Source: Psychrobacter immobilis (GTDB lineage Bacteria > Pseudomonadota > Gammaproteobacteria > Pseudomonadales > Moraxellaceae). Taken from it: 64,000 nt of DNA. Position 1 is the stretch's first letter, and every line of letters starts with the position of its first letter. A model generated the notes under the pieces. That model ran no database searches and was not told the origin of the DNA. It worked only from the letters and a program-made list of their open reading frames with translations. Shown in pieces: positions 6,702-19,324 of the stretch. The DNA is taken from NCBI RefSeq assembly GCF_904846285.1, contig NZ_CAJHAD010000001.1, positions 1 through 64,000 on the forward strand, given 5' to 3'. The position numbers and the translations under genes were made by a program.

Positions 6702-7361
6702 CTAATCTTGCATAGTGGCCAATTGTTCTAAAATATTGACGTAATTGTCCACGCCTTGTGCGCCACTGACTAAATGCCGCTCATTAAAAATCATTGCTGG
6801 TACACTCTGAATACCTTGCTGCTGCCAGTGCCGCTCTTCTGCGCGTACCTCTTTGGCAAAACGCTGCTCTTCTAATACCGCGAGCGCCTCGTCACGATCA
6901 AGTCCTACTTCCGCTGCAATATCGGCCAACACTGTATTATCAGAAATATTGCGACCATCGGTAAAGTGAGCAATGAATAACGCCTGCTTTAAATCATGCA
7001 TTGGCTTTTGCCCTTGCTGACCAGCCCAGTACAACAACTGATGCAGATTAAAAGTATTATGCATACGCGTGTCATCGTTGAAATGAAACTCAAAGCCGAC
7101 TTCAGAGCCTGCTTCCGTCATTCTAATGCGACTCGCATCTGATTCTTCCTTGCTAGAGCCATATTTTTCCATAATATGCTCGCGTAAGTTTTGTCCTTCG
7201 CTTGGCATATTGCTGTTTAGCTCAAACGGATGCCAATGTATTTCATGTTCGGTATTGGTTTGCTTAAGCGCCTCAGCCAATTGACGGTAGCCGATAATAC
7301 ACCAAGGGCAAACCACGTCTGAGACGATATCTATGCGCAGTGGCTGTTTTGAATTGTCCAT
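6702..7361 (-). CDS. FrnE-like DsbA-family oxidoreductase
   Basis: A 219-residue thioredoxin-fold protein with a CPWC active site at Cys18-Cys21 and no signal peptide, so it should act in the cytoplasm. The helical insertion, the IHWHPFELNSNMP segment and the late VPAMIF cis-proline loop match FrnE and the 2-hydroxychromene-2-carboxylate isomerase-like branch of the DsbA family. Such proteins have been linked to disulfide exchange under oxidative stress. It lies next to the formaldehyde/nitrosothiol gene frmA, which would fit a redox-stress neighbourhood, but this is only position. The start ATG follows a weak AGGAAA site. Confidence 0.9.
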   Translation of the reverse strand: MDNSKQPLRIDIVSDVVCPWCIIGYRQLAEALKQTNTEHEIHWHPFELNSNMPSEGQNLREHIMEKYGSSKEESDASRIRMTEAGSEVGFEFHFNDDTRMHNTFNLHQLLYWAGQQGQKPMHDLKQALFIAHFTDGRNISDNTVLADIAAEVGLDRDEALAVLEEQRFAKEVRAEERHWQQQGIQSVPAMIFNERHLVSGAQGVDNYVNILEQLATMQD

Positions 7362-7734
7362 ATTTTCCTACCTATTTTATTGGTGATGCTTTATTTATTT
7401 ATGAAGTTTTTTTATAAGATTCAATCGATATTAAGAGAATGGGGCGGTGATTACAATGGCTGCTGAGTTACAGGTTCTATTTAAAAATTAACATGACCGA
7501 GAGCAGGTATTAAGTAGGTATTAAATAGGTTAGAACTAAGGTTAATGCAGGGTAAAAAAATATTTGTCAACGAATTTTGATTAAAAAACTACACTGTAAT
7601 GACAACAAAGTAAAAACAAAGTGCCGTTTTTGATAAGACATAATAAATTGATTAACGCTTGTTCAAAAGCGTCTATAACTATTCTTTCATCACTTTCATC
7701 ACTTTCATCTATTATCTGCCAGCGAGAAGCCAGC
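7362..7734. other. Intergenic region before the molybdoenzyme operon
   Basis: An AT-rich divergent region between the FrnE-like gene and paoA. It should hold both promoters. I see no clear palindrome, terminator or riboswitch-like structure. An in-frame GTG at 7621 could extend paoA by 38 residues but the extension is Ser/Ile-rich and lacks a twin-arginine signal. Confidence 0.5.
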
Positions 7735-8409
7735 ATGTCTACTTTGACGTTAACGATTAATAAGCAAGAGTATCAGCTCAACAATCTTGATGCGCGCACG
7801 ACATTGCTTGATGTCTGCCGCCAACATCTACAAATAACTGGACCCAAAAAAGGTTGCGACCACGGTCAATGTGGCGCTTGTACCATGCTGATTAATGGCC
7901 GACGGGTCAATTCTTGTCTGACCCTTGCGGTTATGCACGACTGTGATGAGATTACAACAATTGAAGGCATTGGCTTGCCTGAATCGCTATCTGAATTGCA
8001 GCAAGCGTTTAAAGACCATGATGCGTTTCAGTGTGGTTACTGTACGCCGGGGCAAATTTGTTCAGCGACTGCCGTGATAGAAGAGATTAAGCAAAATTGG
8101 CCAAGCTACGTGACTACAGATTTGCAAAATCCTGACGGCTTGCTAGTACAAGAAATCTCTGAACGTATGAGTGGCAATATTTGCCGCTGTTCTGCTTATC
8201 CAAATATTATTAATGCCATCTCGCAGGTTTTGGAGAGTGAGATAAAAGATAACGCTGTTGCTAAAACTGTAACCCAAAAAGGCTCCGATGTTTCAAGCGT
8301 CACAGGTATTTGGTCACCTCCGCCCAGTGAAACGCAGCTTAGCAAACCTTCAAAAAACAAACCGTCACAAAATAAAAGCCATACGGCGCAAGTAGGAGGT
8401 CGTTCATGA
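7735..8409 (+). CDS. paoA: Molybdenum aldehyde oxidoreductase, 2Fe-2S subunit
   Basis: The small subunit of a xanthine-oxidase-family enzyme, related to E. coli PaoA (YagT). It carries two [2Fe-2S] clusters: the plant-ferredoxin type (Cys41, Cys46, Cys49, Cys61) and the C-terminal type (Cys100, Cys103, Cys150, Cys152), passing electrons from the molybdenum centre to FAD. I start at the ATG at 7735, which puts the ferredoxin domain at residue 3. The E. coli protein has a twin-arginine export signal; none is present here even if the GTG at 7621 is used, so this enzyme is probably cytoplasmic. The last ~45 residues are a polar Ser/Lys/Pro-rich tail. The stop overlaps the next start as ATGA. Confidence 0.93.
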   Translation: MSTLTLTINKQEYQLNNLDARTTLLDVCRQHLQITGPKKGCDHGQCGACTMLINGRRVNSCLTLAVMHDCDEITTIEGIGLPESLSELQQAFKDHDAFQCGYCTPGQICSATAVIEEIKQNWPSYVTTDLQNPDGLLVQEISERMSGNICRCSAYPNIINAISQVLESEIKDNAVAKTVTQKGSDVSSVTGIWSPPPSETQLSKPSKNKPSQNKSHTAQVGGRS

Positions 8410-15868: not shown

Positions 15869-16483
15869 TTAATTAGTAAATCTAAGCCCAGAGGTTTTGA
15901 GCGCCCATACCAGCTCAACAAAGGCGCGATTGTTGGTCAAAGGTTCACCATCGATGATAAGCACGTAGCCTGAGCCATCAATCCAGAGAAATACAAAACT
16001 GGTTTCAGGAATCAACAAATCGACTTGCTGAAAGAAAGAGATAGCTTGGCTCTCTACCGCCCAGCCGCGTTGTTTTTGGCGCAGCATAAAGCCTGAAAAG
16101 TCAGCCGCCGCCACACTCAGCATGTCCGCTTCTCCTTGGCTATAGCCAATCCGTGCCAGACAAAACCCTTCATCAGAACCAATCGCCGCGCGGCGTTTAC
16201 CGGACAAGCTTGAAACCACATAGGGTAAAAACTGATCCAGTGGCAAGTTCGGGGCTGGCAAAAACAGCGAAAGTTTTTCAATCCAGCCATGTTCTAAAAA
16301 GCTGTCTAACCACTCATCAGAATAGCGTTCGAGCCAATCAGCGGCTAACAGCGTCTCGTTATGCGACAATAAATCTTGCAAGGATAGCTGCTCAGGCGTT
16401 GGTTCACTTTGCGAAAATGCCTCAAAAATACCGGCTGGGGTCAAGGTCAGATAGGTTTTATCAGCGTTTAAATAATAAGACAT
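15869..16483 (-). CDS. Unrecognised protein, possible roadblock-like C-terminal domain
   Basis: A 204-residue soluble protein that I do not recognise by family. Its N-terminal half is helical and acidic, with many Leu, Trp and Glu residues. From about residue 98 the order of elements resembles a roadblock/LC7 domain: a strand ending in SDEGFCLA, a loop, the helix ADMLSVAAADFSGFML, then two strands (SFVFLWIDGSGYVLIID) and a final helix. The true roadblock protein encoded at 18962-19324 has SNDGLMIA and a similar helix in the same order. This likeness is by eye and not proof. It is the last gene of a five-gene minus-strand cluster, 55 bases after the 208-residue gene. Confidence 0.7.
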   Translation of the reverse strand: MSYYLNADKTYLTLTPAGIFEAFSQSEPTPEQLSLQDLLSHNETLLAADWLERYSDEWLDSFLEHGWIEKLSLFLPAPNLPLDQFLPYVVSSLSGKRRAAIGSDEGFCLARIGYSQGEADMLSVAAADFSGFMLRQKQRGWAVESQAISFFQQVDLLIPETSFVFLWIDGSGYVLIIDGEPLTNNRAFVELVWALKTSGLRFTN

Positions 16484-16538
16484 AGCGGCTACCCGTTAGA
16501 TGAATGTTGATGATGCTATGAGAAAAACGATTTAGGAT

Positions 16539-17165
16539 TTAAGCGTTTTGTACATTTTTAGTTTGATCAAGTTTTTGCTGACAGTTATTCCAGCGGTCAT
16601 TGAATTGCCAATCACTTTTACCCAAGCGGAACCAAACTAATGAGAACGCCAGACGGTCGTTGCGAGCGATACAATGGGCAAAAAACTCGTTTTCAATTTG
16701 TTCTATGGTGTCAAAGTCTTGGTTATCACGCGCGAGCATCAAGTCACTGGTGATATCTTTGGCGATTTCTTTGGCGTCATCACTACTGATACGCAGTCGC
16801 TGGGTTTGTTCATTTAAGGATGGCGATACCAGTACGCTCCAGCGCGTTGCTAGCATGCTGTTTTTTTGGATATAGCTTTTTTTATCGATACAATCACGAA
16901 AGCCTTGCTCGATATGTGGCAGCAGTCGACCTTGCAAGCGGGTAAACATATTGGTGACATCATAGGGGATGTCGTACCAGCAGCCATAAAAGAAATCGGC
17001 TACGGCACCTTGCAGCGGCTCTTTTTCGTTTAAAAGTAGCGCAGCATTGATACGTTGTTCGTGAAAATGGCGGTTGTTTGGAGCGATAAATATTTTACGC
17101 GAATAAAGACGATAGACACGCCGCGCCGCCATTTCACTTTCTTTGATGAGATCTAAATCAGACAT
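16539..17165 (-). CDS. Unrecognised helical protein in the roadblock cluster
   Basis: A 208-residue protein with no signal peptide or membrane segment and no family that I recognise. It is predicted mostly helical and rich in Arg, Asp and Asn. Notable segments are RRVYRLYSRKIFIAPNNRHF near the N-terminus and FFYGCWYDIPYDVTNMFTRL near residues 57-77. The start is preceded by AGGACA at a good distance. The codon use is like that of its neighbours, so there is no sign of recent transfer. It lies between the binding-protein gene and the possible second roadblock-like gene, all on one strand. Confidence 0.75.
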   Translation of the reverse strand: MSDLDLIKESEMAARRVYRLYSRKIFIAPNNRHFHEQRINAALLLNEKEPLQGAVADFFYGCWYDIPYDVTNMFTRLQGRLLPHIEQGFRDCIDKKSYIQKNSMLATRWSVLVSPSLNEQTQRLRISSDDAKEIAKDITSDLMLARDNQDFDTIEQIENEFFAHCIARNDRLAFSLVWFRLGKSDWQFNDRWNNCQQKLDQTKNVQNA

Positions 17166-17365
17166 AAGCGTGTCCTGTTATTCATAGCACGATTAAAGAA
17201 TCTGTTAAAAAGTTATTAAAAGAACATTCGTAAAAATGCTATTAAACCATCGCTTTGAACAATCGCTATGACTTTATATGAGATAACGATTGTTGTTCAG
17301 CATTATTGTAGCGTAATAGGCTACAACTTAAGTAAGATGCCAATTAACCATGAATCACAAATAGG

Positions 17366-18115
17366 CTAATCAAGTAAAGTTTGCATCAAATCAATCATAA
17401 ATTCAGCGTCTTCTTCATCCATGGCTTCAAAACCTTGCGGCATACCAAGTTCAGCCAACGCTTCTTTGCCATCATCATCGTTATGCATATTCAGAATGGC
17501 ATTCATAAGAATTTCTGTATCAGGAAAGCCGTCTTTAATGAGCAAGACGTGGCTGATATCTGCTAAGTCACTTTCGATTAACACCGACAATTGCGCTTTG
17601 GTTAAGCGTGAAAAGCTATGAAAAATCTCCGCTAAAAAGAAAGCGGCTTGCGCCTCTCCTTTAATCACTTGACGTGCTGCTGCTTGATAAGTCTCAGTGA
17701 CTGTCCAATTAAGGTCAGCTTCTTCGATATCGACTGCTTCAAGTAAACGCAAACCAATCAATTTTACATCGCGGTTATCAGCCATCGCTATGGTAGCGCC
17801 AGCTTTGATGTCCTCTAAGTGATTGATGTCGCTATTTGCAGCAGCGGCAATGACCATTTCATCCGATTTACCGATAGGACGCGCAACCGCACGGTAGCCT
17901 TGCTCACGGATAAGTGTGGCAGCATCAAAAGGGTTGGCATAAATGACTTGAATGTCGCCTTGATTGATAATGGCTTCTTGTTCAGCATGCGAGGCGGGGA
18001 TGTTTAGGTGCATATTGAGATTGGCACGCTTTTGAATCAAGATATTAAACATGTGCCAGCCTGCAAAACGCTCCGGCGAAAAATCAGGGGCGATTAACAT
18101 ATTATGTGTCGTCAT
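17366..18115 (-). CDS. Cytosolic PhnD/SsuA-like substrate-binding domain protein
   Basis: A 249-residue protein with a type 2 periplasmic-binding fold of the PhnD/NMT1 kind: an opening MLIAPDFSPERF strand, YANPFDAATLIREQGYRAVARP, IAAAANSDINHLEDIKAGATIAMAD, and VIKGEAQAAFFLAEIFHSF. It begins MTTHNMLIAP with no signal peptide, no lipobox and no transmembrane helix, and no ABC permease or ATPase is nearby. I infer an intracellular ligand sensor, not a transporter part. The C-terminus is acidic (EEDAEF). Its start lies three bases beyond the PAS gene stop and its GAGGA site is inside that gene, so the two are translationally coupled. Confidence 0.8.
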   Translation of the reverse strand: MTTHNMLIAPDFSPERFAGWHMFNILIQKRANLNMHLNIPASHAEQEAIINQGDIQVIYANPFDAATLIREQGYRAVARPIGKSDEMVIAAAANSDINHLEDIKAGATIAMADNRDVKLIGLRLLEAVDIEEADLNWTVTETYQAAARQVIKGEAQAAFFLAEIFHSFSRLTKAQLSVLIESDLADISHVLLIKDGFPDTEILMNAILNMHNDDDGKEALAELGMPQGFEAMDEEDAEFMIDLMQTLLD

Positions 18116-18118
18116 GAT

Positions 18119-18613
18119 TTACGCTTCCTCGTCTTGTTTCATTTGGGCGTATTGAGCGATTGCCGCATCAATTTTGCTGCGTGATGGCTTACGGCGTACC
18201 GAAGTATAGCCAACGGTTTCGCCGCGGCGGACGTTCGGCACAACAGTGGCATAAACCCAGTAATGGCTACCGTCTTTGCATAGGTTCTTGACATAGCCGT
18301 GCCATTTTTGCCCAGCATCGGCAGTCGACCACAAGTCTTTATAGGCCGCTTTTGGCATGTCAGGATGACGCAAAATATAATGCTGCTTGCCGATTAATTC
18401 ATCGACGTCATAGCCGCTAATCTCGACAAAGGCATCATTAACGTGCGTCAAAACACCGTTTAAATCGGTACGTGACACAATCAATTTACCGTCAGGGTAA
18501 GGGCGTTCGATACCAGTATCATAGACAGTGCGCGAAGTGCCATCGTGATAAGTCATGGTGACTTGTTCGGCTGGCATCTCAGGCTTCATGGCGTCGGGGA
18601 GTGGAGAACCCAT
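18119..18613 (-). CDS. Stand-alone PAS-domain protein (Aer-like)
   Basis: A 164-residue protein with one PAS domain at about residues 40-140. The segment LIVSRTDLNGVLTHVNDAFVEISGYDVDELIGKQHYILRHPDMPKAAYKDLW has the features of the Aer redox/energy-sensor PAS, including the RHPDMP motif (~89-94) and the Trp that follows; Aer-type PAS domains bind FAD. There is no HAMP, methyl-accepting, kinase or GGDEF domain, so its output must be another protein. An AAAGGAG site lies seven bases before the start. It is coupled to the binding-protein gene and lies 348 bases from the roadblock gene. Confidence 0.88.
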   Translation of the reverse strand: MGSPLPDAMKPEMPAEQVTMTYHDGTSRTVYDTGIERPYPDGKLIVSRTDLNGVLTHVNDAFVEISGYDVDELIGKQHYILRHPDMPKAAYKDLWSTADAGQKWHGYVKNLCKDGSHYWVYATVVPNVRRGETVGYTSVRRKPSRSKIDAAIAQYAQMKQDEEA

Positions 18614-18961
18614 TGTAATCTCCTTTAGTTATCATCTTAGTGATAATCATTAAAAAGCGGAATTGGTTAAAGCATACTGTCTTAAGTTAATTTTTAAACC
18701 TAAGCTTAAAATTAGGCTTTAAATACATACTTTGTGCTGATTAAGATTGCAAAACTCTCAAAGCTTTTAATAAGGCACTCAAAGCTTTTGGTAAATGAAC
18801 GTTTAGAAAACCTAATCACTCATTCAATATAAACAGTATGCATTACCTTAAAAATTTTTTATAAGACAAGGTTTCAATTTTCATTTAAAGTGTTATTAAT
18901 GAAGTAGTTTATAGCGCTGATACCGCATAAAACCGTAATAACAGAACTTTAAAAATAAATA
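18614..18961. other. Intergenic region between the roadblock and PAS genes
   Basis: AT-rich, with a direct repeat of CTCAAAGCTTTT at about 18757-18768 and 18779-18790. No open frame and no strong terminator are seen, so it could be a long leader or hold an internal promoter. Confidence 0.4.
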
Positions 18962-19324
18962 TTAGATGAGTTTTGCCAGTGCTTCTGATGCACGTTTAAT
19001 ATCTAAGAATATCAAGCCCAGTTTGGCGTTTGGTTTTGCCATAATGGTCAGTACTGCTTCATCGCCTGATGAGGTCATAATCACGTAGCCTTTTTCGCCT
19101 TGGATCATGATACGGTCGATGCTACCACGAGCCAATTCACGACCTGCACGGTCACCTAGTGACAATAAAGCGGCAGACATAGCGCCGACGCGGTCTTCAT
19201 CAACGCCTGTTGGCAGCGCAGATGCAATCATAAGACCATCGTTAGAAATAAGAGCAGATGCTTCAACATCGGCTGATGAGCTGTTTAGGTCTTCCAAGAT
19301 TTGTTGGAATGAATCTGTACGCAT
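18962..19324 (-). CDS. Roadblock/LC7 domain protein (MglB-like)
   Basis: A 120-residue protein that is one roadblock/LC7 domain: ASALISNDGLMIASALP, the long helix GAMSAALLSLGDRAGREL, IDRIMIQGEKGYVIM, and the closing LGLIFLDIKRASEALAKL. In Myxococcus and Thermus, MglB of this fold acts on the small GTPase MglA as activator. No GTPase gene lies in this window, so the partner is elsewhere or different. The start ATG follows AGAGAA. It is the first gene of the minus-strand cluster. Confidence 0.92.
   Translation of the reverse strand: MRTDSFQQILEDLNSSSADVEASALISNDGLMIASALPTGVDEDRVGAMSAALLSLGDRAGRELARGSIDRIMIQGEKGYVIMTSSGDEAVLTIMAKPNAKLGLIFLDIKRASEALAKLI

Follow-up and report, generated by a model that had tools for sequence, protein, structure and literature searches.

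A GTPase-less roadblock gene cluster in Psychrobacter, a candidate cytosolic sensor system related to Group 3 MglA operons

Introduction

Roadblock proteins are known mainly for regulating GTPases (guanosine triphosphatases). In Psychrobacter immobilis (assembly GCF_904846285.1, a genome that is 99.9% complete), a cluster of five minus-strand genes encodes, in order, an MglB-like roadblock protein (RB), an Aer-like PAS protein, a PhnD-like protein, an all-helical protein (D) and a protein with a predicted roadblock fold (E). The window, meaning the whole stretch of DNA that was analysed, comprises positions 1-64,000 of the forward strand of contig NZ_CAJHAD010000001.1, and all five open reading frames listed in the initial annotation were located there. 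In the reading that we prefer, to which we give a probability of about one half, the five remain from a seven-gene operon that has likely lost the genes for an MglA-type GTPase and a partner protein (X), and the products of the five likely form a GTPase-independent cytosolic sensor complex.

The operon extends the published Group 3 MglA type. To that type the present analysis adds the repeated loss of the GTPase along with the end of its partner, a pair of sensor genes, and the persistence of the remaining genes under strong selection. With this cluster it becomes testable what roadblock proteins do when there is no GTPase, as RB is the slowest-changing of the five retained proteins, while the GTPase and the C-terminal end of X appear to have been lost repeatedly. 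The little-studied Group 3 Mgl systems also gain candidates for two inputs, redox and a small ligand, and for one output, type IV pili.

Conservation of gene order

Gene order was compared across 102 loci, in which genes were assigned by iterated profiles; these are the window, 20 loci from other genomes, one gonococcal record and 80 loci that are the best among the RB matches listed, and four of the 102 are repeat fetches of a genome already included. In 85 of the 102 loci, or in 81 of 98 once these four are removed, the genes stand on one strand in the order RB-PAS-PhnD-D-E, although in two loci (L127 and L131) the PAS row chosen may be a different, longer PAS protein. The 85 comprise 35 of the 36 loci in a GTPase-less Psychrobacter group and 50 loci elsewhere (Moraxella, Comamonadaceae, Lysobacteraceae and others). 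Gene spacing is tight or overlapping in the Ottowia, Rhodoferax and Lysobacteraceae loci: in Ottowia sp. GY511 it runs from -4 to +16 base pairs (bp) over all seven genes, and in Lysobacteraceae NML95-0200, which is without X and the GTPase, it is -4, -4, 40 and -4 bp. Conserved order in related genomes had been set beforehand as the test of whether the five genes belong together, and the outcome favours that grouping, with retention in 85 of 102 loci ruling out a chance association. Among the flanking genes no family common to all lineages was found, and a few genes are shared between the Moraxella and the GTPase-bearing Psychrobacter loci.

The GTPase and its partner protein

The earlier statement that the window encodes no GTPase holds, since none of MglA type was found either in the window or in the whole genome. 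The accompanying suggestion to search relatives for an MglA-like GTPase proved fruitful, as 29 of the 85 loci that keep the five-gene order (26 of 81 without repeats) have one inside the same operon, and all 29 have X. In these relatives X (~430 amino acids) and the GTPase (~180 amino acids) are placed between D and E, which corresponds in the window to a junction of 55 bp (16484-16538); the GTPase falls between D and E by open reading frame start in 27 of the 29 loci, and in the other two the reading frame of E looks over-extended. Across 15 aligned GTPase rows, the P-loop GPVGAGKT is seen in 13, the PGQ of switch II and the DAR of G5 are seen in all 15, and a G4 lysine is seen in none. The alignment of X shows conserved ends joined by a variable linker, and comparison with Pfam gave nothing usable.

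Relocation of the GTPase to another part of the P. immobilis genome was considered and rejected, as no GTPase of this type was found there with a single sequence, with a 15-row profile or with the Arf family profile. The best match of the 15-row profile, at E 0.047, fell in an ABC-type ATPase (named by eye), and the Arf profile returned large GTPases resembling MnmE and HflX (by eye), together with weak matches at E 0.26 and 0.50. X had no match in this genome at E<=10.

Similar counts were made over 199 genomes of the family, in which RB was matched in 80 and 66 of the matches are orthologues at 84-100% identity; orthologues were defined by at least 84% identity, with G088 (internal stop) counted as present and G229 (~50% identity, three stops) counted as absent. 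The cognate GTPase, defined by at least 70% identity, is found in 15 of the 66 genomes with RB and in none of the 133 without it. Among the 51 genomes with RB and no cognate GTPase, 28, including that of P. immobilis, have no GTPase match at E<=0.001, and 23 match a distant GTPase relative, two of these (G088 and G097) only as short fragments with a stop. A second, distant GTPase stands beside a second roadblock gene in some Psychrobacter and other genomes of the family (e.g. G184:C45:203637-204693); this pair was not found in the genome of the window.

These counts bear on the possibility that the roadblock pair still regulates a nucleoside triphosphatase (NTPase) encoded elsewhere, be it a pilus motor ATPase, a paralogous GTPase where one is present, or one of the large GTPases, for instance MnmE or HflX. 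Wuichet and Sogaard-Andersen (2014, PMC4316618) describe roadblock proteins as predicted regulators of NTPases, RB is nearly unchanged, as expected with a demanding partner, and the 23 genomes with a distant relative would each supply a candidate, albeit a fragmentary one in two. However, the other 28 of the 51 supply none, and the stronger Arf matches in the P. immobilis genome resemble housekeeping MnmE and HflX. We regard regulation of an NTPase encoded elsewhere as rather unlikely, though it is an alternative to be taken seriously.

Probable loss of the GTPase and selection on the remaining genes

A tree of the five proteins was built by a quick method from 88 of the 102 loci, leaving out seven distant or differently ordered loci, the four repeat fetches and three incomplete loci. 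GTPase presence changes seven times on this tree with all 88 rows, six times without the contig-cut rows L134, L167 and L150, and five times when L115 is also removed; one change spans the whole 36-row Psychrobacter clade, with support of 100. Most simply, the six changes are five losses and one regain. The count of changes gives no direction by itself, and loss is preferred because the GTPase is present in Comamonadaceae, Moraxella, some Psychrobacter, the most distant relative (L062) and Neisseria (L102).

It may be argued instead that the GTPase and X were added more than once to an older five-gene operon, as the tree cannot separate gain from loss and the GTPase of L115 sits within a GTPase-less clade. 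Against repeated addition, Neisseria and the most distant relative within the order likewise hold a GTPase-E-RB core, and the position of the GTPase, between D and E, is the same across loci that have the five-gene order. The partner protein provides a further point. With the three contig-cut loci set aside, the N-terminal, middle and C-terminal parts of X are all found in 25 of 27 GTPase loci, where the profiles of the parts derive solely from loci with the GTPase and do not reach the X of L062, which is too distant. The 58 complete GTPase-less loci include 40 with no X, 17 with X minus its C-terminal part and one with a full X. The GTPase and the C-terminal end of X disappear jointly, and the 17 loci with a truncated X fit loss. 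Repeated addition is thus improbable in our view.

The genes left behind are under strong purifying selection in the GTPase-less Psychrobacter. The ratio of nonsynonymous to synonymous substitution rates (dN/dS, taken as mean dN over mean dS, with pairs dropped when dS fell outside 0.1-1.5) in 35 of these loci is 0.009 for RB, 0.037 for E, 0.047 for PhnD, 0.050 for D and 0.051 for PAS. For the same five genes in eight GTPase-bearing relatives it is 0.048-0.139, though each gene has just 4 to 9 usable pairs there. The dN/dS values of the 35 loci give no indication that selection was relaxed once the GTPase was gone. A decaying remnant, which is how the cluster might be viewed given that the GTPase and X are missing, that RB goes unmatched in 16 of the 66 Psychrobacter sampled and that G229 has only a weak roadblock match with three stops, would be hard to reconcile with values of 0.009-0.051 that lie below those of the GTPase-bearing relatives (few usable pairs), or with the open reading frames and unchanged gene order of 35 of the 36 loci, the remaining one ending at a contig edge. 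Decay of this kind is very improbable.

The roadblock proteins RB and E

RB (18962-19324, minus strand; 120 amino acids) is the product of the first gene of the cluster and matches the roadblock/LC7 family Robl_LC7 (PF03259) in Pfam at E 2.4e-18. It is identical at the protein level in 21 of the 199 family genomes, is 78-91% identical to nine relatives, Burkholderiales among them, and has 1692 relatives in a large protein collection. The nearest solved structures are Asgard archaeal roadblocks (7f8m, E 7.9e-28; 9jue, E 6.7e-20), with bacterial MglB at 1.5e-4.

E (15869-16483, minus strand; 204 amino acids) is a second, hidden roadblock protein by its predicted fold, which would occupy residues ~79-204, with residues ~1-78 at the N-terminus given no assignment. 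The window's E protein has no Pfam match at E<=1, and neither D nor E belongs to a Pfam or NCBIfam family at E<=0.5. Among the members of the E family, 15 of 21 touch Robl_LC7 at E<=1, the best at E 0.0018. Of the two proteins that the initial annotation called unrecognised, D keeps that description, matching no family, and E does not, given its predicted roadblock fold.

The PAS, PhnD-like and D proteins

The PAS protein (18119-18613, minus strand; 164 amino acids) matches PAS_3 (PF08447) in Pfam at E 9.1e-18, and its nearest solved structure is the PAS domain of Escherichia coli Aer (8dik, E 1.3e-35), with the motif RHPDMPKA kept. By homology it is probably of the flavin adenine dinucleotide (FAD) type. 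Unlike Aer, with which it shares the PAS domain, it matches only PAS families in Pfam and NCBIfam, and neither a HAMP nor a chemoreceptor output domain was found; its description as an Aer-like PAS protein lacking an output domain was therefore sound.

The PhnD-like protein (17366-18115, minus strand; 249 amino acids) belongs to a family with a periplasmic-binding-protein fold, matching Phosphonate-bd (PF12974) at E 5.7e-34 and 118 bits against a cut-off of 27. Its score against the PhnD equivalog TIGR03431 is 14.6 bits where the cut-off is 261.1, and its best match among solved structures is only at E 0.21. The motif YANPFD is present in 87 of 87 PhnD-like relatives and S[ST]SG, which we take to be a mark of phosphonate binding, in 0 of 87. 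It also differs from phosphonate-binding PhnD proteins in that no phosphonate permease genes are found in the cluster and no hydrophobic leader or signal peptide is seen by eye. The latter, with the gap of 3 bp to the PAS gene, agrees with its earlier placement as a cytosolic protein encoded next to the PAS protein.

D (16539-17165, minus strand; 208 amino acids) is predicted by AlphaFold2 to be all-helical, with nine helices and a pLDDT (predicted local distance difference test) score of 90.5. A label of D as tetratricopeptide-repeat-like was not adopted, because the fold search gave no PDB match at E<=0.001.

As the PAS protein is closest to the Aer PAS among solved structures and is separated from RB by 348 bp in the window, the PAS and PhnD-like proteins could be viewed as a soluble chemotaxis-type sensor module with the roadblock genes as mere neighbours. 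That view is opposed by a five-gene order kept from Moraxellaceae to Comamonadaceae, with genes overlapping in some lineages, and by the lack of a match to any chemoreceptor output domain in the PAS protein. We consider such a separate module highly doubtful.

Proposed mechanism and a possible type IV pilus output

In the GTPase-independent sensor complex that we propose, the Aer-like PAS protein would read redox or oxygen through a flavin and the PhnD-like protein would read a small cytosolic ligand, and the RB-E roadblock pair would switch state in response to both, D serving as a helical adaptor. In the full systems the RB-E pair would set the GTPase, which would in turn drive X. In Psychrobacter, where the GTPase/X branch is gone, the roadblock complex would act directly on the remaining target, which is putatively, and most likely, the type IV pilus machinery. 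It had been suggested from the window that redox and ligand sensing feed a roadblock-based switch; both sensor types are indeed joined to a roadblock protein, and the suggestion missed the second roadblock protein and the GTPase in the operon of the relatives. A bolder proposal, offered tentatively, is that the roadblock is an output in its own right, and that a flavin-PAS/binding-protein/roadblock switch has shed its GTPase and winged-helix effector on about five independent occasions, with surface behaviour now under its direct control, perhaps including the pilus motor itself.

An output through type IV pili is a best guess. In the 199 genomes, canonical PilT is present in all 66 with RB, and RB is present in none of the 28 without canonical PilT (Fisher p 5.5e-6). 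Presence was scored at E<=1e-145, a cut set after seeing a gap from 3e-153 to 1e-133, which leaves diverged PilT outside the count; the PilT family model matched 198 of the 199 genomes and failed to tell PilT apart from related proteins. An rpoB tree was made for 55 of 59 hand-picked genomes out of the 199 (four had no rpoB match); on it, PilT changes three times, in one Psychrobacter clade and two Moraxella clades, with RB absent in each, and RB changes ten times, mostly where PilT stays. A further hint comes from Snodgrassella, where motility that the authors read as type IV pilus-dependent was altered by a point mutation in an orphan mglB (PMC11112851). Support for a role in motility or surface behaviour is correlative, from RB and PilT, together with this published mutation.

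Several points weigh against the reading that we prefer, and some of them concern the pilus. The link between RB and PilT is not significant once ancestry is counted (sign test p 0.25), where the test cannot reach significance because there are just three PilT events; PilT is present in 105 of the 133 genomes without RB; and the 28 genomes counted as lacking PilT are those without the canonical form, in which a diverged PilT could exist. Others concern the operon. The 102 loci were chosen by RB similarity and are thus not a random sample, and the cluster is dispensable, as 17 of the 66 Psychrobacter sampled lack RB (16 with no match and one with a broken copy). In the window, the gaps of 348 bp between RB and PAS and of 200 bp between PhnD and D make a single transcript only putative. 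Promoter-like sites number 7, fewer than the 11.9 expected by chance, and terminator-like sites number 7 against 4.6 by chance; neither kind was used as evidence. An uncultured Polaromonas (L144, CALMEI010000012.1) holds RB-D-X-GTPase-E with the PAS and PhnD genes absent, so the rest can occur without the sensors. The joint disappearance of the GTPase and the end of X has exceptions, with L133 holding a full X and no GTPase and L115 holding a GTPase and an X without its C-terminus. Flavin and ligand binding are proposed from homology alone. Finally, a profile-profile comparison of E with RB (hhalign) gave no usable match (probability 0.9%), and the assignment of E as a roadblock protein consequently depends on the fold search.

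In the gaps of the cluster the sole Rfam match was to IsrM, at 19.5 bits against a threshold of 376, and was taken as chance.

Relation to known systems

According to the main text of Wuichet and Sogaard-Andersen (2014, PMC4316618), Group 3 MglA systems of beta- and gamma-Proteobacteria comprise an MglA homologue with DAR at G5 and no G4 lysine, one or two MglB proteins, and a partner protein that has, by fold prediction, a receiver-like N-terminus, a variable linker and a winged-helix C-terminus. The window resembles these systems in its two roadblock proteins, RB by Pfam and E by predicted fold, and its relatives do so in an MglA with the same G5 and G4 features and in a partner with a variable linker. 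It differs in that its genome has no match to the GTPase or the partner, and in the added PAS, PhnD-like and 208-amino-acid helical proteins; the words PAS and PhnD are absent from that main text. The initial annotation had raised a possible new signalling system. Since relatives carry an MglA-type GTPase inside the same operon, the cluster is better described as a GTPase-less branch of the known Group 3 MglA kind than as a system unrelated to known ones.

The main text of the same paper already reports loss of the GTPase gene from some conservons, and no orphan MglB had been characterised by then (PMC4316618). The actinobacterial conservons described there are similar in combining a small GTPase, an MglB-like protein and a sensor, with the GTPase lost from some copies, whereas their sensor is a membrane histidine kinase and they include CvnC, neither of which was matched among the five proteins in Pfam or NCBIfam. 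The Snodgrassella mgl genes are likewise of Group 3 with more than one roadblock gene, but mglA is retained there and the orphan mglB lies ~1 Mb from it (PMC11112851). In the open-access literature searched, no published association with PAS, PhnD or the 208-amino-acid protein and no GTPase-less Group 3 form was found. Open-access papers on Psychrobacter roadblocks included none on these proteins, as judged by title, and among the matches listed nothing linked roadblock LC7 with type IV pili or twitching, or MglB with PAS, PhnD or Aer.

Occurrence in other lineages

In the Neisseria gonorrhoeae record (L102, NZ_CP119142.1), the genes run GTPase-E-roadblock at ~6780-8336, nothing there matches PAS, PhnD or D, and the GTPase frame is split into two overlapping open reading frames. 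A record titled Streptomyces cinereus (L141, BMPS01000005.1) carries a Moraxellaceae-type cluster, and its title looks wrong. A complete seven-gene cluster is found in locus L058 (genome G150, genus g36), and as this is the sole sampled g36 genome with an RB orthologue, horizontal transfer is suggested.

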